DNA from: Polyangiaceae bacterium
Lineage (GTDB): Bacteria > Myxococcota_A > Polyangia > Polyangiales > Polyangiaceae
Direction of reading: 5' to 3'
DNA length: 45,510 nucleotides
Assembly: GCA_009780955.1 (NCBI GenBank)
Contig: WQZB01000042.1
Coordinates: 1 to 45,510 of the forward strand
Part shown: one piece after another, positions 67 to 45,510 of the stretch
Position numbering within the stretch: the stretch's first letter is position 1
Layout: every line of letters starts with the position of its first letter
The notes under the pieces: model-generated
The model's database searches: none
What the model saw: only the letters and a program-made list of their open reading frames with translations
Told to the model about the DNA's origin: nothing
Position numbers and translations under genes: made by a program

Positions 67-176
67 GGCCTTCCCCGGCGGCGCGCAGGAAGGCGGCCTT
101 GCCGCCTGACGAGCACCAGCCCAGGGGAAGGCAGACCATGGCGAGCCGTAGGCGTAGCCATGGTGGATGGGGCCCC
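67..176 (+). repeat. Structured repeat family A, copy A1
   Basis: About 110 bp, closely similar to copies at 2576-2685 and 3840-3949. It can fold into three stems. An outer stem pairs GCCTTCCCC (68-76) with GGGGAAGGC (124-132). It encloses a hairpin AGGCGGC-CTT-GCCGCCT (91-107). A separate stem pairs ACCATGGC (136-143) with GCCATGGT (157-164). The enclosed hairpin differs from copies A2 and A3 at four base pairs, each changed on both sides. That covariation indicates the fold matters. The repeat interrupts the 3' part of a MATE gene and supplies an in-frame ATG at 138. Confidence 0.85.
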
Positions 177-326
177 AAAATTCCGCTCGCCCTGCTCCTC
201 GGATTTCACGCGGGCTGGGGTGCACCGGGCCTTTGGTGGGGACTGCTCGTCGGGCTCGTCGTTGTCGCGGGCCTGCTCACATGGCGCTTCGTGCGCATCT
301 CGCGCGGCCATATTGAGAGGGTGTAG
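138..326 (+). pseudogene. MATE-family efflux transporter, C-terminal remnant
   Basis: From about 177 to 326 the sequence encodes the last two helices of a MATE (NorM-type) drug/sodium antiporter. The visible segment IPLALLLGFHAGWGAPGLWW followed by GLLVGLVVVAGLL is the typical end of that family, closing with ISRGHIERV and a TAG stop. Full-length MATE proteins are about 450 residues, so nearly everything is missing. Upstream lies repeat A1, which provides the only nearby ATG (138) and adds MASRRRSHGGWGP. The sequence before the repeat is not MATE-like. I infer a gene broken by repeat-associated rearrangement; a short expressed fusion peptide cannot be excluded. Confidence 0.6.
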
Positions 327-340
327 GTGGATTCACTCGC

Positions 341-1759
341 TCACTCGTCGACCGTCGACTCGAACTCAAAACCGGGTGCGCCGTCGACTCCTTCGTCATC
401 CCCTGGCTCGTCTAAACCCCCTCGCAGCAGGTATGCAGGGCCCTCCATCACTTCTACCTTTACGTCAAGGTGGCCTTTCTTGATGTCGGGACTTGATGCT
501 GCATAGATCTGGTACTCAATGTGGAAGCCCGTTGGAACGCACCCGGTAGCGAACCACGCCTGGAACCGAGGAAGCTCGATGCTGGAATGGTGATTGACGC
601 CGTGCACAAGGATGCGTACGTGGCGCTTATCCTTTGGATCGAAGACGAGTCGCTTTGAAGACAGCCCGCTAACAAGAGGGACTATCAGGCCCGACAGGCC
701 CGGTCGTTGGGGCATGAACGCCGAAGACTGCAAAGCCTTTATCGCCGCTGCAGCCCCACTTTCTAACACAAATCCTCTCCCCAAATACTTGTGGAGGGGA
801 GTCTCAATCTCTTTTGGTTTAGGTGGCAAGGGCCGTTCTTTGACCTTCGGTAAGGATCGCTTCTCGCCAATAGCGACGTTGGCGAGAAACGAAAGGTCGA
901 TTTCGATGTCGTTGGCGTTCCCTATCCCGTCATTCGCGAGCACCAGCTTAACATCGAAGGTGTGCGCCCGCATAACTGCAGCCTCCCTATGCTCGACCAT
1001 CCACTTGCGCAGCTGCTCGAGATACTCGTCTACCAACAACGGGCTCGGCGGGCGGTGCGTGATGTTCAGCCCGAACTTACGTGCGATTTCAAAGCCAGCA
1101 CGTTCGGACGCCAGCTCTTCGTCGAGGTCTTTGTCTGTAGGCCTTTCGAGACCATGCAACTTGATCGAAAGGGGATTCGAACCTCCGGCGAAACCTAGCG
1201 ATAGGTTCGGCGCAGGGTTCACTCGCTTTTCCAGCTCAATGATCTTCTTTTTTAGCTCCCGTTTCTCCAGCTCCGTCTCGTCCGGTTCGTCGGCGAGACG
1301 TTGGTCTGCTGGAGGACAAACAACAGCAATATCAAAGCCATCGGCCATGCAGGTAAGGAGGATATCCGAGGTTACACATACGACAGGGACATTCGGATAC
1401 TGCCTGCGGTCACGGAGAATGCAAGCGATAAGCCGGTCGTCAGCAACGGCTGGATCCAGGCTATGTTCCGCGAAGAGGTCCGCCTTGGGCTCGTGTGCAT
1501 TCACTTCGACGCGAACGCGGGGGCGTATCTGCCAATTCTTCGTATTCCGAAGGTCGCCGATCCATGACGACCAGTCCCGAGCGCGTTTCTGGATCGTCCC
1601 CCGACTTCGATCCTTCTTGTCGTTGACCTCACGTAGCAGGACAGACGTGACGACAAGCATGACCTCCTCCGCCTCTACGACGGCACACCAGTCGATCTCC
1701 CTAAACGCTCGGTAGTGGAGTGCCACGTTCGCGTCTGGGTACACGCGCTTCACGATCAT
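341..1759 (-). CDS. Large PIN-domain protein
   Basis: A 472-residue protein whose first ~150 residues have the layout of a PIN ribonuclease domain: YPDANVALHY with D9, then SVLLREV with E44, then DPAVADDRLIACIL with D107/D108, then VTSD with D132. These acidic residues would bind the metal ions used for RNA cleavage. Residues about 158-176 form a charged, probably coiled-coil helix (ELEKRELKKKIIELEKRV). The remaining ~290 residues, rich in beta-like stretches, match nothing I recognise. It is far longer than VapC toxins (~130-150 aa), so it may be a stand-alone defence or RNA-processing nuclease. It is transcribed divergently from the toxin-antitoxin pair, with about 95 bp between the starts. 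Base composition looks less GC-rich than the housekeeping genes, consistent with acquisition. Confidence 0.7.
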   Translation of the reverse strand: MIVKRVYPDANVALHYRAFREIDWCAVVEAEEVMLVVTSVLLREVNDKKDRSRGTIQKRARDWSSWIGDLRNTKNWQIRPRVRVEVNAHEPKADLFAEHSLDPAVADDRLIACILRDRRQYPNVPVVCVTSDILLTCMADGFDIAVVCPPADQRLADEPDETELEKRELKKKIIELEKRVNPAPNLSLGFAGGSNPLSIKLHGLERPTDKDLDEELASERAGFEIARKFGLNITHRPPSPLLVDEYLEQLRKWMVEHREAAVMRAHTFDVKLVLANDGIGNANDIEIDLSFLANVAIGEKRSLPKVKERPLPPKPKEIETPLHKYLGRGFVLESGAAAAIKALQSSAFMPQRPGLSGLIVPLVSGLSSKRLVFDPKDKRHVRILVHGVNHHSSIELPRFQAWFATGCVPTGFHIEYQIYAASSPDIKKGHLDVKVEVMEGPAYLLRGGLDEPGDDEGVDGAPGFEFESTVDE

Positions 1760-1854
1760 TCAGTCCAATCTCCGCGTACGCCTGTCCGGTGTCAACACGC
1801 CGCTCCCGAGGCCACATGCACGCGAAAAGAACCACGTATGCTAAAATCGACGCG

Positions 1855-2100
1855 ATGTCGAAGCAGACGGCCATCAAGCTTCAAGTCGAAGTCGGCCCGG
1901 ACCACACGATCAAACTCCCAGACGAGGTTCCCGTCGGTCCTGCCGAGGTGATCGTCCTCGTGTCCGAAGGTAGCTCCGTGCGACCGATCGCCGAAAAGAG
2001 CTTGCTCGGCCTCTTTGCCGACGAACCAGAGGTCGTGGACGAGGCAATGGCGCACATTCGTGAGCGGCGTAAGAGCTGGCGAATGCGGCCGGCAACATGA
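1855..2100 (+). CDS. VapB/AbrB-like antitoxin
   Basis: An 81-residue protein overlapping the following PIN toxin by four bases (ATGA), the usual arrangement for a type II toxin-antitoxin operon. The N-terminal part (LQVEVGPDHTIKLPDEVPVG) looks like a short beta-hairpin DNA-binding domain of the AbrB/DUF2281 kind. The C-terminal part (SLLGLFADEPEVVDEAMAHI, then RERRKSW) is the helical tail that in such families wraps around the toxin. The start at 1855 was chosen because the conserved-looking part begins there; earlier in-frame ATGs extend into the divergent promoter region. By family, it should neutralise VapC and repress its own promoter. The exact antitoxin subfamily is uncertain. Confidence 0.75.
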   Translation: MSKQTAIKLQVEVGPDHTIKLPDEVPVGPAEVIVLVSEGSSVRPIAEKSLLGLFADEPEVVDEAMAHIRERRKSWRMRPAT

Positions 2101-2534
2101 GCCGCGCGCTTCTCGATACGGATATCTTCTCGGAGATTCTCAAGGGCCGAGATCCGACCGTCGCCCGCGCGGGTGCCGACTACCTTGCTCGCCATGGCGA
2201 GTTCATTGTGTCCGTCGTGAGCGCAATGGAGATCGCGTACGGCCTACGCCGCGCAGACCGATTCGAGCAGCTCGAGGAGTTCGCGTCGACGCTCAAGACA
2301 ACGTGCAACGTCCTCCCGTTCGAAGAACCCGCAGCACTTCTCGCGGGCCGCATCGAGGCCGATCTCGAGAAGCGCGGCACGCCCATCGATTTCACCGACG
2401 TGATGATCGCTGCAACGGCGCTTGTGGTGCGCCTGCCCGTGGTGACCGGAAACGTGATGCACTTCGAGGCGGTGAAGAAAGCCGGCTACGAGCTTTCTAT
2501 CGAGAACTGGCGCGAGACCCATCTACGAGCATGA
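2097..2534 (+). CDS. vapC: VapC-type PIN-domain toxin
   Basis: A 145-residue PIN-domain ribonuclease, normal length for VapC. The metal-binding acidic residues are visible: D7 in LLDTDIF, E45 in SAMEIAYG, D98 and D101 in TPIDFTDVMIAAT, and the VTGN segment near residue 117. VapC toxins cut tRNA or rRNA and stop translation when the antitoxin is degraded. The start overlaps the antitoxin stop, implying translational coupling. The stop codon lies about 40 bp before structured repeat A2. Function follows from family membership; the RNA target cannot be read from the sequence. Confidence 0.92.
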   Translation: MSRALLDTDIFSEILKGRDPTVARAGADYLARHGEFIVSVVSAMEIAYGLRRADRFEQLEEFASTLKTTCNVLPFEEPAALLAGRIEADLEKRGTPIDFTDVMIAATALVVRLPVVTGNVMHFEAVKKAGYELSIENWRETHLRA

Positions 2535-2575
2535 GGAGCATGAACATTCCGTTTTGCGAGGATGCAACACTCGCG

Positions 2576-2718
2576 CGCCTTCCCCGGCGGCGCGCAGGAA
2601 GGGCCGCTTCGGCCCTGACGAGCACCAGCCCGGGGGAAGGCAGACCATGGCGAGCCGAAGGCGAAGCCATGGTGGATGGGGCCCCCACATCTCGCGCGGC
2701 CCCATCGAGAGGGTGTAG
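2576..2718 (+). repeat. Structured repeat family A, copy A2 with MATE-derived tail
   Basis: Positions 2576-2685 repeat copy A1 with the same three-stem layout: outer stem 2577-2585 with 2633-2641, hairpin AGGGCCG-CTT-CGGCCCT at 2600-2616, and an ACCATGGC/GCCATGGT stem. It is followed directly by ATCTCGCGCGGCC...GAGAGGGTGTAG (to 2718). This is nearly the same as the last 30 bases of the MATE remnant at 296-326, but without the hydrophobic segment between. A2 therefore looks like a duplicated, internally deleted version of the A1 locus. It sits directly after vapC. Confidence 0.85.
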
Positions 2719-2740
2719 ATCGTCAACTCGAAAGCGGGCC
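2719..2740. repeat. Solo end of MITE-like family B
   Basis: CGTCAACTCGAAAGCGGGC (2721-2739) matches the terminal inverted repeat of family B (CGTCAACTTGAAAGCGGGC in the copy at 25320-25443) at all but one position. The rest of the element is absent. The remnant forms the last codons and the TGA stop of the unknown minus-strand gene ending at 2723. Confidence 0.6.
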
Positions 2741-3676
2741 AAGTGCAGCATGCACGCTTTCGACGATGGCAACAACCAAGGCAACCGGGGGATCAGGCAA
2801 AATGTTGACGCCACGATTCGCCCACGGTGCTGACCACACGACTTCCACGGTGCCGTTGGCGATGACGAGCTGCTCGATAGGATGCATGAGAAGCAGCTGA
2901 CGAACTGAATCGGTGAGAAGAGCAGCCGCAATGCCTGGGTTGCCATCGACTTGACACGCCCTATCGAAGGCGGCGTCGCCAGAAAGACTAGCGCTGCCAA
3001 GGGCCTTGCCAAGCCATTTGAACGTTCGCCCAAGCATGTCGAGCGCAGCGAGCCGCTGGACGAAAAGAGTAATGCCACTCGGGATCGACGCGCGCAAACG
3101 GCATGTCACCCGTCCCGACGTAGCCACCAAGAACGTCGATGGGCCGTGTCCGTATGCGGCGAGCAGAAGGTCGACGTCTCGTTCACGAAAGCGAGCGCAC
3201 ACTCCCTCGGTGTAACCCCAAGTCGTGATGACAGCGTCTTTGCGCGAAGCAAGGCTCTCGACCACGAGATTACCCACAGCAAGCGGCCCTTCCCGTTGCC
3301 CAAACGCCGATATCGGAAAAAACCAAGGGAATTCAGGCTCTGGAGGACACTGTGGAAGAGGAACCGTTTCCCGCGCCTTTTGGACGGCTCGGTCGACTTC
3401 GCCAAGCTTGCTCGAAAGTTGCGCGATCGCTTCTTCCCAACTTTGAAACTCTTGTTCGTCGGAAGGAACAACGGTGTGGACGCGATTCACCAGATTGGCG
3501 ATTTCGCCTACGAGGGGCGCCGGCACGACTGCGCATCGTACCGGCGCATACCGATTCCTCAGCTGTCGAACGTGAGCGAGCTTTTCTTCCACGCGCTCGT
3601 TGAGCCCCGATGGCAATCGGTACGGCGACGTGCCCTCGATGCGCTCACTCATTAAGGAAGCTTTCATATTGGTCAT
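2723..3676 (-). CDS. Hypothetical protein, 317 aa
   Basis: Predicted soluble protein of 317 residues; no family recognised. The N-terminal third is helical and charged (NERVEEKLAHVRQLRNRY, then EEAIAQLSSKLGEVDRAVQ), suggesting a coiled coil. The C-terminal half has alternating hydrophobic segments without a clear motif. The ATG at 3676 was chosen because it overlaps an upstream stop as TAATG and has GGAGG-like bases before it; in-frame ATGs at 3667 and 3652 are alternatives. The last codons (GPLSS, TGA) derive from a family B repeat end, so the native C-terminus may have been replaced. Function unknown. Confidence 0.6.
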   Translation of the reverse strand: MTNMKASLMSERIEGTSPYRLPSGLNERVEEKLAHVRQLRNRYAPVRCAVVPAPLVGEIANLVNRVHTVVPSDEQEFQSWEEAIAQLSSKLGEVDRAVQKARETVPLPQCPPEPEFPWFFPISAFGQREGPLAVGNLVVESLASRKDAVITTWGYTEGVCARFRERDVDLLLAAYGHGPSTFLVATSGRVTCRLRASIPSGITLFVQRLAALDMLGRTFKWLGKALGSASLSGDAAFDRACQVDGNPGIAAALLTDSVRQLLLMHPIEQLVIANGTVEVVWSAPWANRGVNILPDPPVALVVAIVESVHAALGPLSS

Positions 3677-3840
3677 TACGGCTCCGCCTCCGCTAAGGGC
3701 GGATCTTCGATACAGCCGCCTACGATAATAGGACCGACCGCGAGCCCGCCACATAACTCCTTCTTCCCGTTGTGATCCGCATCGCGCACACCAACGTGCG
3801 CTGCCACCGCATGCACCACGGCACGATGCAGTGACCACGC
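3676..3840 (-). pseudogene. Truncated reading frame upstream of the unknown gene
   Basis: An open frame on the minus strand ends in GGLAVGPIIVGGCIEDPPL, AEAEP and a TAA that overlaps the next gene's ATG (TAATG, 3674-3678). That coupling is typical of a real upstream cistron. Going upstream, the frame runs straight into repeat A3 at 3840, and no recognisable start remains except an ATG inside the repeat. I infer the 3' end of a gene cut off by the repeat. The family is not recognisable from about 55 residues. Confidence 0.4.
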
Positions 3841-3949
3841 GCCTTCCCCGGCCGCGCGCAGGAAGGGCCGCTTCGGCCCTGACGAGCACCAGCCCGGGGG
3901 AAGGCAGACCATGGCGAGCCGAAGGCGAAGCCATGGTGGATGGGGCCCA
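3840..3949 (+). repeat. Structured repeat family A, copy A3
   Basis: Third copy of the ~110-bp structured repeat, nearly identical to A2. Outer stem GCCTTCCCC (3841-3849) with GGGGAAGGC (3897-3905), inner hairpin AGGGCCG-CTT-CGGCCCT (3864-3880), then the ACCATGGC/GCCATGGT stem. It ends two bases before the stop codon of the FGE-like lipoprotein gene, so it could act as a 3' processing or termination structure for that transcript. Confidence 0.85.
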
Positions 3950-3951
3950 TT

Positions 3952-5793
3952 TCAATACAAGCGCATGCAGCGCGCGCCAGTCTTGCCGTACTTGTCGACG
4001 AAGTTGACGCCCGTTGTCCACAAGGGCCCATATCCAGCGAGATGGCCTTCCCACGACGAGCCAGTCCATCCGTACCAGCCACCGTTGTATTGGGAAAATT
4101 CGAGCATGTTGCCTCCGAGGTCCATCCACGACTCCTGCGGCGCGGGGCGGGCTTGGCTTGCGATGTCGCCCGGGAACCGGCCGGGGGGCGCGATGATGGG
4201 CGTAAAGTCATTCGCGAACGTGCCGTAATCGACCAGCGGGAAGAGGTAACGTGGATCTTTCGCGCCGAAGTTCGACACCCCTGCGTTGTAATTGGCAATC
4301 TTAGCAACCTCATCAGCGGGGGTTGGGGTATCGCCCCACGGCCAGGCTTTCGGCCCGTACGCCGCCGATATCGCGTCACGGCTTATGAGGTAGCCGCCAT
4401 CCCATGCGCAGAACGCCGCGAACATCATGGCCGTCATGCAGTTCATCGATTTCTCATCGAGGATATCTTGAGAAATGGTGCGCGGCGGCTCCCCGAAATA
4501 TGCCATTTGCGTGGCGTCGGACCAATACGTCCGATGGCCGTACGCGCCCGCGTTCATTCCGCAGCCGCTCGTTGCAGTCTGCTCACCAGGCTGCACGCCT
4601 CGGTAGTACGACGTGGGCCCGAGCTGATCGGCGAGCCCCATGTCGAGATCGATGGTGGTTGGCTGCCCATTGGGATCCGTCACATAATAAGGAAACGTCA
4701 CGACTTGACCGGTCTTCTTCGAAGGCAATCCATCGGCCTGCGACGTAAACCCGGTCGATGCAGGGAATCCCGTTTTAGGGAACATGGCGGCGAGAATCGG
4801 ATCGACCAGGATGCGCTCCTTCACCCAAGCCTGGATGTTCGGGACGCCACCGTATTGCGCCTCGATCGCCGCGACCCACGCGCGCACGCGGCCCGAGGTG
4901 ATTTCATATTTGTCGACGTAGACGTTCTTGGTAACACCGCCCGCGTCCTTCATCGTGAGGCCGGGCACCTGCAATGTCTTGCAGCAGCTCTCGTGATTCG
5001 ACGCGACTTCGGTGGGGCCGCAGCTATAGCCGCCGTGCAAAGCCCGACAACTCGGGGCTTCGACGCATAATTTGTAATTTGCACACACCGTACTTTCGCA
5101 ATCGGTGTCGACCTGACAGCTCTTGGCCAGCGCACAAGGGGGCGCCGCGGGAACCGTAACACCGTCGAACGACTGCTCCGCGCCACCGCAGTCCACGTCC
5201 GTCTCCGTGCCATTTTGGACGCCGTCACTCGACGTTGGCAGAGCGCATTGGTCGTTTACGCAATAGCCCAATCCGCAATCCGTTCCGGCAATGCACGCCT
5301 TTCCCAAGGAGCATTTTTTCGCGTTCAGTCCACCACAATCAATGTCGGTCTCGCCGTTGTTCTTCTTGCCGTCCGTATCGCTCGGGGCCGCGCAAATGCC
5401 GGCATTGCAGATGGACTCGCAGTCGTCATTGACATTGCATTGGGCGTTTTCAGGGCACGGCGTACCCGAATCACCTCCGCAGTCCACATCCGTCTCGCCG
5501 GCATCCCTGCGCCCGTCGGAGTGTGCGTTGTCGGCTGGTGGCGTACAGAGCCCACTTGCGTCGCAATAGTCGCTCGTGCAGTCGGCGTCGATCTGACAGA
5601 CGATTCCATCTGCACACGCCGTTGAGGTACCCAAACCACATGTCTTGTCCGGAGGCACGCAATCGGCATCGTTGCCGTCGGTGCACGAGCTCATACCTGC
5701 CTTCGGCTCGTTCGACTTGGCAGGGATGTCTGGCGTGTTCGACGAAGAACATGCCGCGACGACGAACAAAAACAACCACCATTTTTGATGCAT
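3952..5793 (-). CDS. Cys-rich lipoprotein with FGE/SUMF1-like domain
   Basis: A 613-residue secreted lipoprotein. The start at 5793 gives a short signal (MHQKWWLFLF) and a good lipobox VAAC with C15 as the lipidated cysteine; a longer in-frame start exists but would bury the signal. Residues about 30-270 carry several cysteine modules of the form DG-x-x-N-x-x-ETD-x-DCGG (for example NNGETDIDCGG, NGTETDVDCGG), common in myxobacterial surface proteins. The C-terminal ~300 residues look like a formylglycine-generating-enzyme/sulfatase-modifying domain: YVDKYEITSGRVRAWV near its start, DLGGNMLEFS, and the terminal GARCMRLY corresponding to the family's G-x-RC ending. Many such domains are not active FGEs but ligand-binding or structural. 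Repeat A3 abuts the stop codon. Confidence 0.8.
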   Translation of the reverse strand: MHQKWWLFLFVVAACSSSNTPDIPAKSNEPKAGMSSCTDGNDADCVPPDKTCGLGTSTACADGIVCQIDADCTSDYCDASGLCTPPADNAHSDGRRDAGETDVDCGGDSGTPCPENAQCNVNDDCESICNAGICAAPSDTDGKKNNGETDIDCGGLNAKKCSLGKACIAGTDCGLGYCVNDQCALPTSSDGVQNGTETDVDCGGAEQSFDGVTVPAAPPCALAKSCQVDTDCESTVCANYKLCVEAPSCRALHGGYSCGPTEVASNHESCCKTLQVPGLTMKDAGGVTKNVYVDKYEITSGRVRAWVAAIEAQYGGVPNIQAWVKERILVDPILAAMFPKTGFPASTGFTSQADGLPSKKTGQVVTFPYYVTDPNGQPTTIDLDMGLADQLGPTSYYRGVQPGEQTATSGCGMNAGAYGHRTYWSDATQMAYFGEPPRTISQDILDEKSMNCMTAMMFAAFCAWDGGYLISRDAISAAYGPKAWPWGDTPTPADEVAKIANYNAGVSNFGAKDPRYLFPLVDYGTFANDFTPIIAPPGRFPGDIASQARPAPQESWMDLGGNMLEFSQYNGGWYGWTGSSWEGHLAGYGPLWTTGVNFVDKYGKTGARCMRLY

Positions 5794-5996
5794 AAGTCGC
5801 ACGTTGCCTTCCCTAATAAGTGCGTGCGCGATAGGGCGCGCCACGTTATAGGTTTAAGTTTAGGCACGACAACCCGTTTGCGACAGCAAAAGAACACCGC
5901 GCACACCGCACACATCCTCGGCGTTCTCAAGCGGTGCGCTGAAACGCGCAACGAGCGACGCGCGCGTGCGAGTCACCTTGTCAGTGAGTCACCTCC

Positions 5997-8731: not shown

Positions 8732-8847
8732 CCAGAGTGTTCCTTGTGAGACAGATGAGACTTACAGGCTTTAGTGCCACGCAGCTCCGAAAGTCAACGG
8801 CGCGCTCATAAAAGGCGGGCACCCACAAGGGCCAACAAACGCAATCC

Positions 8848-9016
8848 GTAGGGGTGTATGGCCATACACCCCTACACCGCAACCGCCAACAAAACGCAAT
8901 GCGTAGGGGCGCCATTCATGGCGCCCAACCGTGGCGGCCGATCCGAGGGCGCGATGAATCTCACCCCTACGTCCAACAAACGCAATGCGTAGGGGCGACC
9001 CTTGTGGTCGCCTTAG
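8848..9016. repeat. Cluster of four REP-like GTAGGGG palindromes
   Basis: Four hairpins share GTAGGGG/CCCCTAC flanks but have different cores. 8848-8875 is a perfect 28-bp palindrome with core TGTATGGCCATACA. 8903-8926 has core GCGCCATTCATGGCGC. 8947-8970 has GCGCGATGAATC with a decayed right arm. 8989-9016 has core GCGACCCTTGTGGTCGC. The spacers also recur, for example CAACAAACGCAATGC directly before a hairpin. A partial relative is at 8815-8830. The last hairpin overlaps the TAA stop of the TPR gene ending at 9013. The cluster lies between nuoA's start side and that stop and could serve as a terminator. Confidence 0.85.
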
Positions 9017-10140: not shown

Positions 10141-10252
10141 CTGTTCTGTTCTGGTCCGCTCCTAGCCGAGCCGTGCGAGGGTGTGTACGTGTGCTATACA
10201 AGCACACGTACCTCGCCGCCGCCTTGAACTCGCGCCAACTTGAAAGCGGTCT
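10141..10252. repeat. Degenerate family B MITE with inserted hairpin
   Basis: The right end 10227-10252 (GAACTCGCGCCAACTTGAAA then GCGGTCT) and the segment 10151-10173 (CTGGTCCGCTCCTAGCCGAG) match the right half of family B at 20717-20839. Between them sits about 50 bp absent from the other copies. It holds an 11-bp perfect stem, GTACGTGTGCT (10185-10195) with AGCACACGTAC (10202-10212). The left terminal repeat is missing. The hairpin lies upstream of the TPR gene and downstream of the TIGR02757 gene and may work as a terminator. Confidence 0.65.
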
Positions 10253-10294
10253 CGTTGCAACATCTTAGGCTCTTACGGAAGATCATGCCAGAAC

Positions 10295-16790: not shown

Positions 16791-16857
16791 GTAGGGGCGC
16801 GATTTATCGCGCCCTGGGGATCCGCCTGCGGTCGGGCGCCATAAATGGCGCCCCTAC
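16791..16857. repeat. Two-hairpin REP-like element
   Basis: A 67-bp unit that begins GTAGGGG and ends CCCCTAC. It holds two hairpins, GGGCGCGATTTATCGCGCCC (16795-16814) and GGGCGCCATAAATGGCGCCC (16834-16853), separated by about 19 bp. The outer GTAGGGGCGC and GCGCCCCTAC ends can pair with each other. It lies between the convergent ends of the sigma factor gene and the sulfatase-fold gene, where a bidirectional terminator would be expected. Confidence 0.88.
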
Positions 16858-20298: not shown

Positions 20299-20916
20299 GT
20301 GGTGCGCCGCATTGCGGAAAAGCTCAAACACCTTTGGGTGCTCGCCACCTCGGAGCGCGCCTCGGCTCGCGAGATCGGCTGGGCAGTGGCGATTGGTGTG
20401 TTTGCCGGGTGCACGCCGGCCGTCGGGTTTCACGGCCCGTTTGCGGTCGCGCTTGCCACGATTTTGAAGAAAAATCGCTTGTTTGCGTGGATTGGGTCGC
20501 GCATTTCGAACATGTTTATTTTGCCGTTCATCGTGCTCGCGGAGGTCCAGCTCGCGCATCGCGTGCGCCAAGGCACATGGGTCACGCTCGATCGAAAACA
20601 CGTGGTTCGCGAGGCCCCGAACCTTTTGTTCGATTGGTTCCTTGGAACGATTCCGGTCGGCCTGCTCTTGGCCATCGTGTTCGGTTTAGTGGCTTGGGCG
20701 ATCGTCGCCCGACGCGACCGCTTTCGATTTGACGCGATTTCTTCGTTGGCGGCTCCGGTGCGGTCCTCAAAGCCGGAAGAGGCTATTCCGGTCCGCTCCT
20801 CGCCGACCGCCTCGAACTCGCGTCAACTTGAAAGCGGTCTAGAAAATGCTGAAACGATTAATAACCCGCAAGTGCACGACGAAGGTCCTCCACCGTCTTC
20901 GGGATCGCCTGCGTAA
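20299..20916 (+). CDS. DUF2062 membrane protein with MITE-derived C-terminus
   Basis: A 205-residue membrane protein. Residues 1-140 match the DUF2062 family in layout: AVAIGVFAGCTPAVGFHGPF, ATILKKNRLFAWIGSRISN and a hydrophobic FLGTIPVGLLLAIVFGLVAW. The family's function is unknown; it occurs in envelope-related contexts. The start is a GTG at 20299. From about residue 140 onward the protein is encoded by a family B MITE (20717-20839) and then by the antisense of the 3' end of pepP, ending in DEGPPPSSGSPA. The native stop appears to have been lost and replaced, giving about 65 extra residues. Confidence 0.75.
   Translation: MVRRIAEKLKHLWVLATSERASAREIGWAVAIGVFAGCTPAVGFHGPFAVALATILKKNRLFAWIGSRISNMFILPFIVLAEVQLAHRVRQGTWVTLDRKHVVREAPNLLFDWFLGTIPVGLLLAIVFGLVAWAIVARRDRFRFDAISSLAAPVRSSKPEEAIPVRSSPTASNSRQLESGLENAETINNPQVHDEGPPPSSGSPA
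20717..20839. repeat. MITE-like family B, copy B1
   Basis: A 123-bp element with terminal inverted repeats ACCGCTTTCGATTTGACGCG and, read inward from the other end, ACCGCTTTCAAGTTGACGCG, plus one further shared base. The sequence between is nearly the same, in inverse orientation, as that of B2 at 25320-25443. No transposase is encoded, so it would be mobilised in trans if it is still active. It is inserted in frame near the 3' end of the DUF2062 gene. Confidence 0.85.
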
Positions 20917-25235: not shown

Positions 25236-28200
25236 GTGCTCGCTGCTGCTGGCATTGCCGTATTCGTGCTCGCGGAAACGACGACCGCGAGACGCGCCAC
25301 CGCAACACCACTAGACCGAGCCCGCTTTCAAGTTGACGCGAGTTCGAGGCGGTCGGCGAGGAGCGGACCGGAACAGCCTGCTTCGGCTTTGAGGACCGCC
25401 CCGGAGCCGCCAACGAAGAAATCGCGTCAAATCGAAAGCGGGCAGATCGCGAGGCTGGATGCCGAAGCACAAGCCCCTGCCATTGATGTGAGGCTCGCGC
25501 CTTCCGCGTCAGGAGTGCTCGGCGCATGGCTCATGTGCGGACCATTCCGCGCCGGTAAGCCTGCTCTCGAAGCGGCCCCAATCGGTATTTCGGGCGGCGT
25601 TGCAGAAGCTTTGCTCACACCCGAGCTCGGAGCGAGCCTTGGCGAAGCGCGCGACCTTGGCAACGGCAAGAAGCTGCCCCCTGCCCGTTGGCTGCTCGCT
25701 TCAACGGCAAGTACAGAGGCCGATTTCGGCCCAAGCGGTGATCGCCCAGTCGATGTGAAGGCAGCCCTTGACGCGGGTGGCATGACCAACGTTGTCGCGT
25801 ACGCCGCGGGCGTGATTTCCGTAAAGCGCGCTGGACGCCACTACCTTCTTCTCGGCATCGACGACGGCGTGCGCGTGAGCGTCGATGGGAAAGTGGTTTT
25901 TGCGCGCGACGACGCAAGACCGGTCCGCGAAGACGACGACGTTGTCCCACTCGACCTTGCCGAAGGCGAGCACACCATCGTCCTCAAACTTCACCAACAT
26001 GAAGGTGCGTGGGCGATGCGGGTGCGGTTCGTCGACTCGTCGCTTCGAGTACCACTCGGAAGCTACCTGCGCCTGCCCGGAACGAGTGCCGATGACGCGC
26101 GCGGCCTGGCCGCGAAAATGTCATGGCTTTCGATCGACCGCACGTTCGATGCAGTAAGCCATTCTCCAAGCTATCGTCCCACGCTCAAGGTTCGTTTTCC
26201 TGAAGGCGCGCCGCGCGGCGTTCCTATTTTGATAACCGCGAAACTCGCTCGAGAAGGTCACGACGCGCCGATATTCGATCTTCAAGCAGGCAGCGTTACG
26301 GTGACGGCAAGCGGCGTGACCGATTTGGCGGTCACGCTGCCTCCGATTACGTCGCTCGGAGCTGACGCCACATTCGAGGCCAGTGTGGCGGGCCGCGTGG
26401 TTCGCTTGCCGTTCCCTAGCCGGCCGCTCACCGAACAGGCGCTCGCGCGCGCAACGCGAGCCCTTGCAACGGTCGACGAGCACGCGGCGTGGCTTGCGCC
26501 TGGATCGCTCGATTCGGTGCGTTTTCTCACACAAAGGCTCTCGCATCTCGTGGCTCGTGGCGATGCCGATGCCGATGCCCAGGCCGAAGAAGCACGCGAG
26601 CTCGATGGCCTCGCCGCTTCGCTCGAGCGCGGCCGAGACCCTTACCGTGGGAAAGTCGGCCCCGTGCGTCGCGCCATCACGAGCAGCATCGATGGCGCGC
26701 TCAGCGAATTCGGGCTTTACGTTCCGGCGGCGTATAGGCCAGATATAAGTCACGACATAAGTCGTAAGTTTCCGCTCATCGTTGGTCTGCACGGACTCAA
26801 TGGCCGTGCCATGGCCATAATGCGGTGGATGTTCGGCGGAGACGATCCGAAGCGTGATCAGGCGTGGGAAGACCGTCACGTGGGTGCGCTTTTGCCGATC
26901 GACGCGTTCGTTGTCACGCCTTCTGCGTATGGCAACACGCTGTACCGCGAGCTCGGTGAAACGAACGTGATGGATGTCATCGACTGGGTGAAAAAAACAT
27001 TTCCAATCGACCCGGCGCGCGTGACGATCACCGGGCCGTCGATGGGCGGCATTGGTTCGGCGTCGATTCCCCTGCACTTTCCAAACGTTTTTGCAGCCGC
27101 GGCTCCGCTGTGCGGCTACCATAGCGCTTTCGTTCGAAGCGACGTGGCGGGTAAGCCGATTCGCCCGTGGGAAAAATTCCTCGCCGAAGAGCGCTCGAAT
27201 GTTTTTTGGGCCGAAAATGGCGAGCGGCTGCCGCTATGGATTGTGCACGGCAAACAAGACTTGCCCGAAGCCAACAGCGGCGTGCTCATCGACCGTTATC
27301 ACGAACTGAATTTTCCAGTGAAACACGAGCACCCCGACAAGGGGCACAACGTCTGGCAAGAAACCTATGACGAGCTCAAAGGTGTCAAGTGGCTCGCTCA
27401 GCATGCGCGCGATTTGCATCCCGCTCATGTGCGCTTCAAAACGTCGCGAACGCGCTGGAACCAAAGCGCATGGATTACGATCGACGAGCTTGCAGCCGCA
27501 TCGGGCTGGGGCGAAATCGATGCGCGCATCGCGCGCGCGCACAAGAAAAACAGCGTTGTCGCCAAAACCCGCGGCGTCGATGCGCTGACCTTCACGCGCG
27601 ACCCTGCCCTTATCAACCTCGATGCACGCGTCGAGGTGATCATCGACGCGCAAGCATTAAAGTTTGATTCTGGCGAAGATCTGCGTGTGCACAAAGAGGG
27701 CACGGTTTGGCACAAAGGCCCTGCCACTCACAATGCCCCCTACAAGCATGGCGCCATAACAGGCCCTATTCGCGATGTGTTCTATGGCCCCGTGCTCTTG
27801 GTTTACGAGTCGAGCGCGTCGAGCTCCGAAGGCGCCATGGCGAGCGAGATCGTGGCACGATCGCTTGCGCGGATTCGCCCCGGAGTGCACGTCGCGTACC
27901 CAATCATGAGCGACGCCGAATTTTTTACCAAAGGTGAAGCGCTCGATAACGATCGGTCGCTCGTTCTCGTTGGGCGCCAGAACCGCGTGCTCGAAGCCAT
28001 GGAAAGCGCCGCAACCCAGGCCATGGCGCACCCGTTGCCCATCAAAGTGTCGGCCGGCGCGATTGCGATTGGCACCGAGCGCATCACCGGATCATCCCTT
28101 GGTGCGGCGTTCGTTTACCCAAACCCAACTCGCCCCGATCGCTACATCGTCGTGGTTGCCGGCGCGGACGTAACAGGAATGCTGCGCGCGCTCTCCTTGC

Positions 28201-29227: not shown

Positions 29228-29238
29228 CCGCCGCGGTT

Positions 29239-29381
29239 GGGCGCCATAAATGGCGCCCCTACGATGATGCGTTCTTGAATGTAGGGGCGCGATTCATCGC
29301 GCCCTCGGCGCCCCTACCTCTTTCGACGGCCTTTGACGCGATCGCGATCATCAGTAGGGGCGTATGGCCATACGCCCCTAC
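29239..29381. repeat. REP-like palindrome cluster over the rluB 3' end
   Basis: Hairpins GGGCGCCATAAATGGCGCCC (from 29239), GGGCGCGATTCATCGCGCCC (29285-29304), a half unit GGCGCCCCTAC (29307-29317), and a 28-bp perfect palindrome at 29354-29381 with core GCGTATGGCCATACGC. The half unit supplies the TAG stop of the pseudouridine synthase gene at 29314, and the last palindrome encodes its residues SRGVWPYAPT. Confidence 0.88.
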
Positions 29382-40423: not shown

Positions 40424-40479
40424 TTGCAGCGAGAGGATCGAAACGTCGAAGCGAAGTCGTTATGAATTATTTGAGCCAT

Positions 40480-40615
40480 GTAGGGGCGTATGGCCATACG
40501 CCCCTACGAAGATATGCGTTTCGTTGTAGGGGCGCCATTCATGGCGCCCGACCGCGTGGCGTTTTGGAATCCATACCATTGGTAGATCCCGAGGGCGCGA
40601 TGAATCGCGCCCCTA
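40480..40615. repeat. Three-palindrome REP-like cluster
   Basis: Order and cores repeat those at 8848-8970: a 28-bp palindrome with core GCGTATGGCCATACGC (40480-40507), GGGCGCCATTCATGGCGCCC (40530-40549), then GGGCGCGATGAATCGCGCCC (40593-40612) and CTA. The final CTA is the TAG stop of the S8 protease gene (40613-40615). The cluster separates the convergently arranged... upstream permease start and the protease end, both on the minus strand. Confidence 0.88.
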
Positions 40616-42367
40616 GATTCGTTTTGCATCAAGTGTCATCCGTGCAACCCACAAACACATGGCTGCATTCACGGCACAAAACACGCGCAGCATGAACGGC
40701 CCCCCAGCAAATAGGACTTCGCCGCTCATGGCAAGCTGCACGCAAAGCGCCGCACTGCCAAGTGCATATCCCCCCACGGCACCGCGCAAGCGCTTGCTGC
40801 CAAAGAAAAGTGCCACGAGCAGGAATGTTGGCGCCGCGCTGGCGAGAATTAGCCATTTGTGCGCAGCCGCCGAAAATAGCAAATCCCACTCTCCCACAGG
40901 CTTGATGAAGAGCTCGGTCACCCAGCGCAGGCTGCCCGCACGCGCCGGCACTCCAAACACGGGCAACACGGGCAATAGCCCTACGCCCGCAACCAAAGCG
41001 GCTGCCATTTTGCCTACGCCTCGCTCGATGGAACCCCCTTTCCTTTTGATGTGCCGAGCGACGGCCAACGCAAGCCCGAAGAGCACGAGCAGACGAACCA
41101 CGACGTGGGTGAAGTGCGTAGAAAAGACGGATTTCCCGGCGTCGAGAATCCCAGCGCCAAACAAGTTTTTATCGTTTTTCGGGATTGCCGTAGCCTGCAA
41201 AACTTCGCGCACGGCATCTGGATTCGTAATGCCCTGACCCATAGCGAGCGCGGCGGCGGCGGCAACGTGAGGAGACGCCATGCTCGTGCCGTTGAAAACG
41301 CCCCACATTTCGCATTTGTTTTTGCCTTCGTCGCAAATCGTTTGCTGCGTGACCGACACCCCTGGCGCGCCAATGGCCACTTCGGGCCCGCGCGACGAGA
41401 ACCATGCGAGATTGTCGTTTCGGTCGGTTGCACTCACGGCAATCACATCGGCATACGCTGCGGGATAGCCAACCGATTTGCCGGAATTGCCCGCAGCCGC
41501 AACGACAACCACACCTTTCTTGGAGGCGTACTTGACCGCGTTCTCGACAACCTTGCTTCGGATGGGAGAGCCGAGTGACAGATTCACGACGTTGGCGCCG
41601 TGATCGGCTGCCCATCGAATTCCCTCGGCAACGTCGGCCATCGTGCCCCAGCCTTGCTTCGACAGCACCTTGACGGGCATAAGCTTCGCGCAGTGCGCGA
41701 GACCGGCAACGCCAACACCGTTGTTCGTTGTCTGGGCGATCGTTCCGGCGACGTGCGTGCCATGACCTTGGTCGTCGGCGGCAATATCGTTATTACCCAC
41801 GAAGTTGTAACCACCCACGCAGGATGTACCTGCCAGATCGGTCCCCTTCATGAAACCGCTCTTGTCGTAACAAGCAATGCCCGTATCGACGACGGCCACG
41901 GTAACGCCCTGCCCGCACGCATAATCCCACGCGCGCTCGGCGCCCACGCGCGTCATGTGCCACTGCTCGCCAAACTTTGGATCGTTCGGAGTAAACAATG
42001 CTTTGGCAACGATGACGGGCTCGACCGCTTCCACGCGCGAGTCGCTCGTGAGGCGCGCGATGAGCTCGCCCAAGCGCGACGCATCAATGTTGGCAATGGC
42101 AATGTTGCCATCGTTTTTGACGCCAGGGCTGTTGTCACGCAAAGCAATATGAAATTCGCTGCCGAGGCGCTCGATATCGGCGTCGGTCAGATCGTCTTTC
42201 ACATCCACGACGATCTCACCCGGCATGACGTCGGGCAGACTCTCGAGAAACTGCGAGGTTGGCGCATTCGACGGCGCAAGATCGATTCGTTCCTGCTCCG
42301 CATAGGCGGGCTGCCCCACCGCGAGCCCAAAAGCACACGATGCGAAAGTGACAATGGCGCGCTTCAT
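40613..42367 (-). CDS. Subtilisin-family (S8) serine protease with membrane tail
   Basis: A 584-residue secreted protease. Signal peptide at 1-23 (MKRAIVTFASCAFGLAVGQP, AYA). Residues ~45-120 resemble a fervidolysin-type propeptide. The catalytic triad is D161 (VAVVDTGIACYD), H202 (DQGHGTHVAGTIAQ) and S362 (FNGTSMASPHVAA), with the oxyanion Asn near 294 (AAAGNSG). After ~405 there are four to five hydrophobic segments (VVRLLVLFGLALAVARHI, LAMSGEVLFAGGPFMLRVF), so the protease is membrane-tethered with an unusual multi-helix tail. The stop lies in a REP-like palindrome. Confidence 0.92.
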   Translation of the reverse strand: MKRAIVTFASCAFGLAVGQPAYAEQERIDLAPSNAPTSQFLESLPDVMPGEIVVDVKDDLTDADIERLGSEFHIALRDNSPGVKNDGNIAIANIDASRLGELIARLTSDSRVEAVEPVIVAKALFTPNDPKFGEQWHMTRVGAERAWDYACGQGVTVAVVDTGIACYDKSGFMKGTDLAGTSCVGGYNFVGNNDIAADDQGHGTHVAGTIAQTTNNGVGVAGLAHCAKLMPVKVLSKQGWGTMADVAEGIRWAADHGANVVNLSLGSPIRSKVVENAVKYASKKGVVVVAAAGNSGKSVGYPAAYADVIAVSATDRNDNLAWFSSRGPEVAIGAPGVSVTQQTICDEGKNKCEMWGVFNGTSMASPHVAAAAALAMGQGITNPDAVREVLQATAIPKNDKNLFGAGILDAGKSVFSTHFTHVVVRLLVLFGLALAVARHIKRKGGSIERGVGKMAAALVAGVGLLPVLPVFGVPARAGSLRWVTELFIKPVGEWDLLFSAAAHKWLILASAAPTFLLVALFFGSKRLRGAVGGYALGSAALCVQLAMSGEVLFAGGPFMLRVFCAVNAAMCLWVARMTLDAKRI

Positions 42368-45299: not shown

Positions 45300-45388
45300 G
45301 GGCAGACACGGGGGTCTGCCCCTACAACCAACAACGTAATATCGTAGGGCGCCATTCATGGCGCCCGACCTTAGGGCGCCATAAATGG
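45300..45388. repeat. REP-like hairpins, last one interrupted
   Basis: GGGCAGACACGGGGGTCTGC, then CCCTAC (45300-45325); GTAGGGCGCCATTCATGGCG, then CCC (45344-45366); and AGGGCGCCATAAATGG (45373-45388). Intact copies of the last unit at 16834 and 29239 continue CGCCCCTAC. Here that right arm is missing and the next base is the end of a group II intron. Confidence 0.85.
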
Positions 45389-45510
45389 GTCGAGTAGCCC
45401 GAGGGGATTTCACCCTCGGGCCCTCCCAGAACCGGACGTGAGACTCTCGCCTCATCCGGCTCCTCCAATCCCGGCCGCAGGCTTCGCACCGAGACGCCAA
45501 TGCGCAAAGA
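45389..45510 (-). mobile_element. Group II intron, 3' end
   Basis: Read on the minus strand, 45462-45429 forms a textbook 34-nt domain V. The lower stem pairs GAGCCGGA with UCCGGUUC and contains the AGC triad at positions 2-4. The upper stem UGAGGC/GUCUCA is closed by a GAGA tetraloop, with a two-base CG bulge on the 3' side. It is followed by domain VI (45420-45398, CCCGAGGG stem with an A-rich loop). The intron ends CTACTCGAC at 45389, a typical AY terminus. The reverse-transcriptase gene and 5' end lie beyond the window. The 3' exon is a REP-like hairpin. Confidence 0.88.

Follow-up and report, generated by a model that had tools for sequence, protein, structure and literature searches.

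Why do three copies of a repeat in one bacterial contig differ in sequence and yet keep the same base pairing, and what is the repeat? The window analysed here (45,510 nt) comprises one entire contig from the 4.2-Mb draft genome of a Polyangiaceae bacterium (G000). It contains the repeat as three copies of about 124 nt with 81-94% identity to the middle one. We propose, with a probability of roughly 0.6, that it is a non-autonomous REP/MITE-like mobile element whose plus strand, when single-stranded, folds into an intrastrand DNA triplex of the class II purine motif, of the PIT/TM kind. The features to which the argument refers are the following.

67-176, plus strand: copy A1 (85.5 bits, covariance model R1)
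70-76, plus strand: A1 outer helix P1, 5' pyrimidine strand CTTCCCC (pair counts)
85-112, plus strand: A1 internal loop GCAGGA/GACGA around a variable apical hairpin (91-107); loop strands invariant in 22 aligned cores, apical pairs varying on both sides
124-130, plus strand: A1 outer helix P1, 3' purine strand GGGGAAG (pair counts)
135-164, plus strand: A1 second hairpin hp2 with a GTA triloop, the putative structured second loop of the triplex (folding, loop survey)
165-172, plus strand: A1 tail GGATGGGG, with 166-172 as the putative third strand on P1 (triad counts, 93 copies)
2552-2568, plus strand: A2 semi-conserved 5' flanking segment TTTTGCGAGGATGCAAC, not essential, in a form common to many copies in the relative G010 (CTTGCCACGATGCAGCA)
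2576-2685, plus strand: copy A2 (86.1 bits, model R1)
2674-2681, plus strand: A2 tail GGATGGGG, putative third strand (triad counts)
3840-3949, plus strand: copy A3 (82.4 bits, model R1); the minus-strand gene 3952-5844 has its stop codon 6 nt past the tail
3938-3945, plus strand: A3 tail GGATGGGG, putative third strand (triad counts)

The positions given for the three copies in the first-pass annotation are exact, and the stems that it assigned to all of them recur as a common fold of outer stem, apical hairpin and second hairpin, with folding z-scores of -4.1, -3.8 and -2.9 against dinucleotide shuffles. Its statement that four base pairs differ between copies and all remain paired holds for the apical hairpin, where AGGCGGC/GCCGCCT in A1 stands against AGGGCCG/CGGCCCT in A2 and A3, a run of four pairs being altered in both arms. 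The inner helix of A3 has one broken pair, C opposite C, at a position that is G-C in A1 and A2. The placement of all copies near gene 3' ends is clear for A3, fair for A2 (about 44 nt after a PIN-domain gene) and, with about 170 nt to the next stop on the minus strand and the contig start on the left, weak for A1. Three copies alone cannot show selection on structure, since one template switch in a palindrome yields several 'compensated' pairs. Pieces of one common sequence (CATCTCGCGCGGCC..GAGAGGGTGTAG; window 160-327 and 2688-2718) follow both A1 and A2; to the eye they resemble 3' remnants of one gene, perhaps MATE-like, and a rearrangement at the element is possible.

A covariance model of structure and sequence retrieved 121 copies of the element in two genomes: 7 in G000, with A1, A2 and A3 alone in the window, and 114 in G010, the same-genus Polyangiaceae MAG Emb289P4bin34 (WQYX01), presumably a termite-gut MAG to judge from the sample name. 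Within a set of 108 family genomes, copies beyond those of these two are confined to two further members of the genus, with two weak copies each, and one member of another genus, with one (0-2 copies per other family member). The core pattern had three matches in the window and none in 100 shuffles; a broad pattern over genome contigs gave mostly chance matches, with only the Polyangiaceae MAG copies scoring with the model, and a looser one over the 108 family genomes gave, outside G010, counts mostly of the same order as a reversed-pattern control. The element had no match among the Rfam 15 covariance models at gathering and E-value thresholds.

Each copy is modular, consisting of a semi-conserved 5' segment, a core hairpin, hp2, the G-rich tail and the 3' end. 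Among 57 copies extracted independently, P1 (the outer helix) shows T-A/C-G and C-G/T-A changes; the middle helix P2 exchanges GTC/GAC, GCC/GGC and GGC/GCC, and the inner helix P3 exchanges C-G/G-C. The apical helix occurs in nearly thirty forms that differ in sequence and length and keep their pairing. In 22 gap-free distinct cores that could be aligned, 96.9% of the cells are paired, compared with 81.3% after shuffling (0 of 500 shuffles), cells with a double change number 67 against 19.5, and covariation reaches 0.403 where shuffling gives 0.127; a one-column shift of the partner lowers pairing to 42-46%, and RNAalifold, unaided, returned nearly the same structure. The loop strands GCAGGA and GACGA are constant in the 22 cores, an invariance that, like that of part of P1, was partly imposed, because the extraction pattern fixed those letters and left position 7 of P1, P2, P3 and the apical helix free. 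The first-pass annotation had proposed selection on structure, to be checked by a covariance-model search of the genome and its relatives, and this proposal is supported: instead of stems disrupted as often as conserved, nearly all pairs are kept in the 57 copies and most helices vary in a paired manner. The wobble pairs give a mixed strand signal, with T.G in P2 on the plus strand and C.A in P3, equivalent to G.T on the minus strand. Hammerhead-like and kink-turn-like readings of CUGACGAG were rejected, as there is no partner at the cleavage site and the inner-helix covariation excludes the register. Some copies (L242, L246, L249 and L255) carry large inserts of nested hairpins in the apical hairpin, that of L255 including a GTAG..CTAC palindrome; the apical loop thus seems to be a tolerated insertion site.

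The G-rich tail that follows hp2 (in the window, GGATGGGG) is complementary to nothing in the element and is the mirror image of the purine strand of P1 (P1b). Read as a third strand on P1, it follows the rule C-G.G / T-A.(A or T) in 647 of the 651 triads of 93 copies, whereas 5000 shuffles that reassigned the tails reached a mean of 556 and a maximum of 585. A pyrimidine strand (P1a) CTTCCCC goes with the tail GG[A/T]TGGGG, CTTCCCT with GGATGGGT, CTCCCCT with GG[A/T]GGGGT, and CTCCCCC with GG[A/T]GGGGG; the triad state switches at positions 3 and 7 only, and all four combinations occur. The tail was located by a pattern open to all variants whatever the P1 type, and an earlier listing made without the pattern agrees. 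Two of the apparent violations (L225 and L243) have a P1a C opposite a P1b A and a T in the tail; this T matches the P1b A, so the tail follows the purine strand. The same code is obeyed by distant copies in G003 and G006 (C-G.G) and in G104 (T-A.T). The new finding is this covariation between the G-rich tail and P1, of the sort expected of a third strand.

In the purine motif the third strand is antiparallel to the purine strand of the duplex and reads A(T).A-T and G.G-C (PMC4666352). The triad code fits this on the plus strand only; on the minus strand it would call for a parallel pyrimidine strand with A at A-T pairs, and that is no canonical code. The geometry is suitable, as hp2 sits at the foot of P1 and allows the tail to fold back. 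Judging from the triad covariation, the tail may be taken as the third strand of an antiparallel purine-motif triplex, in which P1a would pair with P1b and the G-rich tail would return antiparallel along P1b. Loop 1 would then be the long hairpin with the invariant purine-rich internal loop GCAGGA/GACGA, and loop 2 would be hp2, usually closed by a d(GNA) triloop; among the hp2 loops surveyed, 62 of 110 are GNA on the plus strand and 0 of 110 are TNC.

The triplex literature cites an article under the title 'Exclusion of RNA strands from a purine motif triple helix', and purine-motif triplexes are a DNA structure. This, together with the d(GNA)-type loops of hp2, makes single-stranded DNA the likely folded form, and the plus strand as DNA, rather than RNA, is probably what folds. 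A role as RNA, whether as a structured 3' untranslated region, a terminator or an mRNA-stabilising hairpin kept for its function after stop codons, appears unlikely to us, even though 36 of the 93 copies, read on the strand of the gene, start no more than 17 nt from its stop codon, and as RNA the hairpins of either strand fold strongly. On the mRNA strand the tail code becomes A at A-U and C at G-C, not a canonical RNA triplex, whereas on the plus strand it is canonical for DNA; moreover, the GNA loops lie on the other strand, the hairpins are not followed by a T-tract, many copies are away from stop codons, and Rfam gave no match.

The putative triplex is short (7 triads), and with only two variable positions it reflects few independent events, at least three; raw copy counts overstate the evidence, since the copies are relatives. 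Given two variable positions, four types and universal relatedness, the covariation of tail and P1 could be an accident of four subfamilies with one founder each, but this we consider improbable. All four combinations exist among 85 distinct cores, a single P2/P3 background (GCCCGCGC) carries all four P1/tail types, and the distant copies in G104 (T-A.T) and in G003 and G006 (C-G.G) conform to the code. Four combinations at two positions require recurrence or recombination beyond three single-lineage changes, and recombination as their source is very unlikely, as it would take a three-segment exchange that spares a neighbour four letters away. About as improbable is that mutation itself, by quasi-palindrome correction (template switching) and gene conversion, keeps the arms of a high-copy palindrome complementary: four adjacent pairs do change together between A1 and A2/A3, and the apical hairpin varies freely between backgrounds by exchange and expansion, but such copying yields inverted or direct repeats and never the mirror relation of tail and P1b, so that a mutation-only origin of the tail/P1 match is already disfavoured, and the internal loop is invariant while the helices vary. 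For the apical hairpin taken by itself, such an origin may hold.

The closest known counterparts of the proposed triplex-forming element are intrastrand triplex motifs, namely the PIT elements and, in E. coli, TM_ECO (Holder et al. 2015, PMC4666352). They share with it the strand order (pyrimidine, purine, purine third strand) on one DNA strand, the class II purine motif with the same triad code, as found here in 647 of 651 triads over 93 copies, and a G/C-rich, intergenic, many-copy occurrence that is patchy between close relatives. TM_ECO measures about 37 nt, its stems being 9 nt and its loops 3-6 nt long, whereas the present element has a core of 50-115 nt, 7-nt stems, and hairpins for both loops, hp2 being about 20-38 nt. 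Since both loops are hairpins longer than 20 nt and the ITxF loop range is 1-6 nt, it is a variant rather than a standard member of the PIT/TM group, and a search limited to 1-6 nt loops would miss it. TM_ECO also has no fixed distance to genes, whereas the present element abuts gene 3' ends and shows covariation of triads among its copies. For TM_ECO, the best studied of the bacterial intrastrand-triplex repeats, DMS footprinting detected no stable triplex in vivo in E. coli (PMC4666352). In the present family every combination of triads at the two variable positions exists in nature, which provides compensatory mutants for a direct test of whether such repeats fold and matter in cells.

Among mobile repeats, the element resembles the REP/REPIN/BIME family served by TnpA_REP (RAYT; PMC8266576, PMC3116915) as a high-copy, mostly intergenic palindrome (114 copies in G010, at sites that adjoin gene ends) spread in one lineage, with some inverted pairs, probable recognition as single-stranded DNA, and a CT dinucleotide next to the fold, recalling the CT next to the hairpin at which REP elements are cut (PMC8266576). 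It differs in being much larger (about 110 nt, compared with a 20-50 nt palindrome directly after a GTAG-type tetranucleotide) and in lacking the strict GTAG foot at the stem: its minus-strand end reads GNNG, set off from hp2 by the 8-nt tail. No TnpA_REP was found, the search for PF01797 (Y1 transposase, HUH) giving nothing in G000 and one IS200-like gene in G010 that is unlinked to the element. Identity with RAYT/REP was therefore rejected, for want of both the GTAG at the stem and the transposase. With MITEs the element shares a non-autonomous, dispersed form of about 110-150 bp, but the stand-alone form has no simple terminal inverted repeats, and the flanks of 93 copies showed none of the target duplications expected of a DDE transposase, save for one 38-bp direct repeat above the shuffled level (L069). 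The integron attC site likewise folds as single-stranded DNA and sits right after stop codons; it too was rejected, since flanks read by eye showed GCTTAAC at some 3' ends and no R' partner, hence no RYYYAAC (R'') and GTTRRRY (R') end pair in the right order, and the copies do not stand in cassette arrays. Target-primed reverse transcription, suggested by the variable 5' and fixed 3' ends, was discarded in view of the missing target duplications.

The placement at gene ends is sharp and of fixed orientation, the element following the 3' end of a gene encoded on the opposite strand. For 36 of 93 copies, a convergent coding frame ends -1 to +17 nt from the tail, with modes at +4 (15 copies) and 0 (7 copies); many other copies do not adjoin a stop codon. 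The adjoining genes in G010 encode what we take to be ordinary proteins (PheS, LysC, CarB, HflX, BamA, ribonucleotide reductase and others). At 12 such gene-end sites of G010, orthologues in G000, G002 or G006 have no element next to the stop codon, and in most cases their C-termini coincide to the residue or differ by a few residues; HflX is shorter in G010 than in the relatives, and the PheS stop, TGA in three relatives, is TAA at the element junction in G010. Thus the element came after the split and supplies or preserves the stop codon. These 12 sites and the copy numbers show that it has dispersed in one lineage. The 3' junction has the consensus C-Y-N-C-T-(T/A)-A-A, and close pairs of copies include two inverted and three direct ones.

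As to the mechanism, the fold would form in the cell as single-stranded DNA, for instance on an exposed replication strand, and a trans-acting enzyme would recognise it and join its 3' end (consensus CYNCT, then TAA) to targets, those insertions being tolerated that keep or rebuild the stop codon of the convergent gene. The fixed 3' end with its CT dinucleotide, the lack of duplications and the strand-specific fold suggest, as the most likely guess, that the mover is an HUH-type or analogous enzyme acting in trans on folded single-stranded DNA. That this enzyme transposes the element by reading the triple helix itself, with the triads kept by selection over many copies, is a tentative extension that we hold possible but rather doubtful. 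If true, it would be the first evolutionary evidence of a natural DNA triplex maintained for function. The sharp gene-end placement also points to an undescribed harmless route by which a mobile element may enter dense genomes.

Several further repeats were observed in the window and in G010. In G010 a repeated sequence starts right after its GGGGAAG (continuing as CAGGTGTGATTGGAGTC) at contig ends, for example in L319-L330; of 15 junctions listed, 14 involve the P1b arm and one, in L324, the P1a arm. Contigs break inside this sequence, which is probably an insertion sequence, and the element is its site-specific target. A short palindrome GTACTCTC..GAGTACA lies 20-60 nt upstream of many G010 copies (L196, L054, L094, L128, L194). 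A separate MITE with the ends CCGCTTTCRARTTGACGCGA occurs in the window at 20718-20840, 25319-25441 and 10219-10254 and in L043, L045, L046 and L050; some copies of the element ride inside a separate MITE with CCGCTTTC..GAAAGCGG ends, and several MITE copies in G010 hold the element plus an added upstream hairpin (GGTCCGC..GCGGACC). REP-like palindromic repeats with the GTAG tetranucleotide (GTAG..CTAC; GTAGGGGCGCCAT..ATGGCGCCCCTAC) are found in the window at 8847-8995, 16792-16857, 29233-29381, 40476-40620 and 45341-45370, and no Y1 transposase for them was found in the G000 genome. Finally, a match to group II intron domain V/VI (RF00029, 59 bits) lies at 45389-45465 on the minus strand, at the end of the contig.
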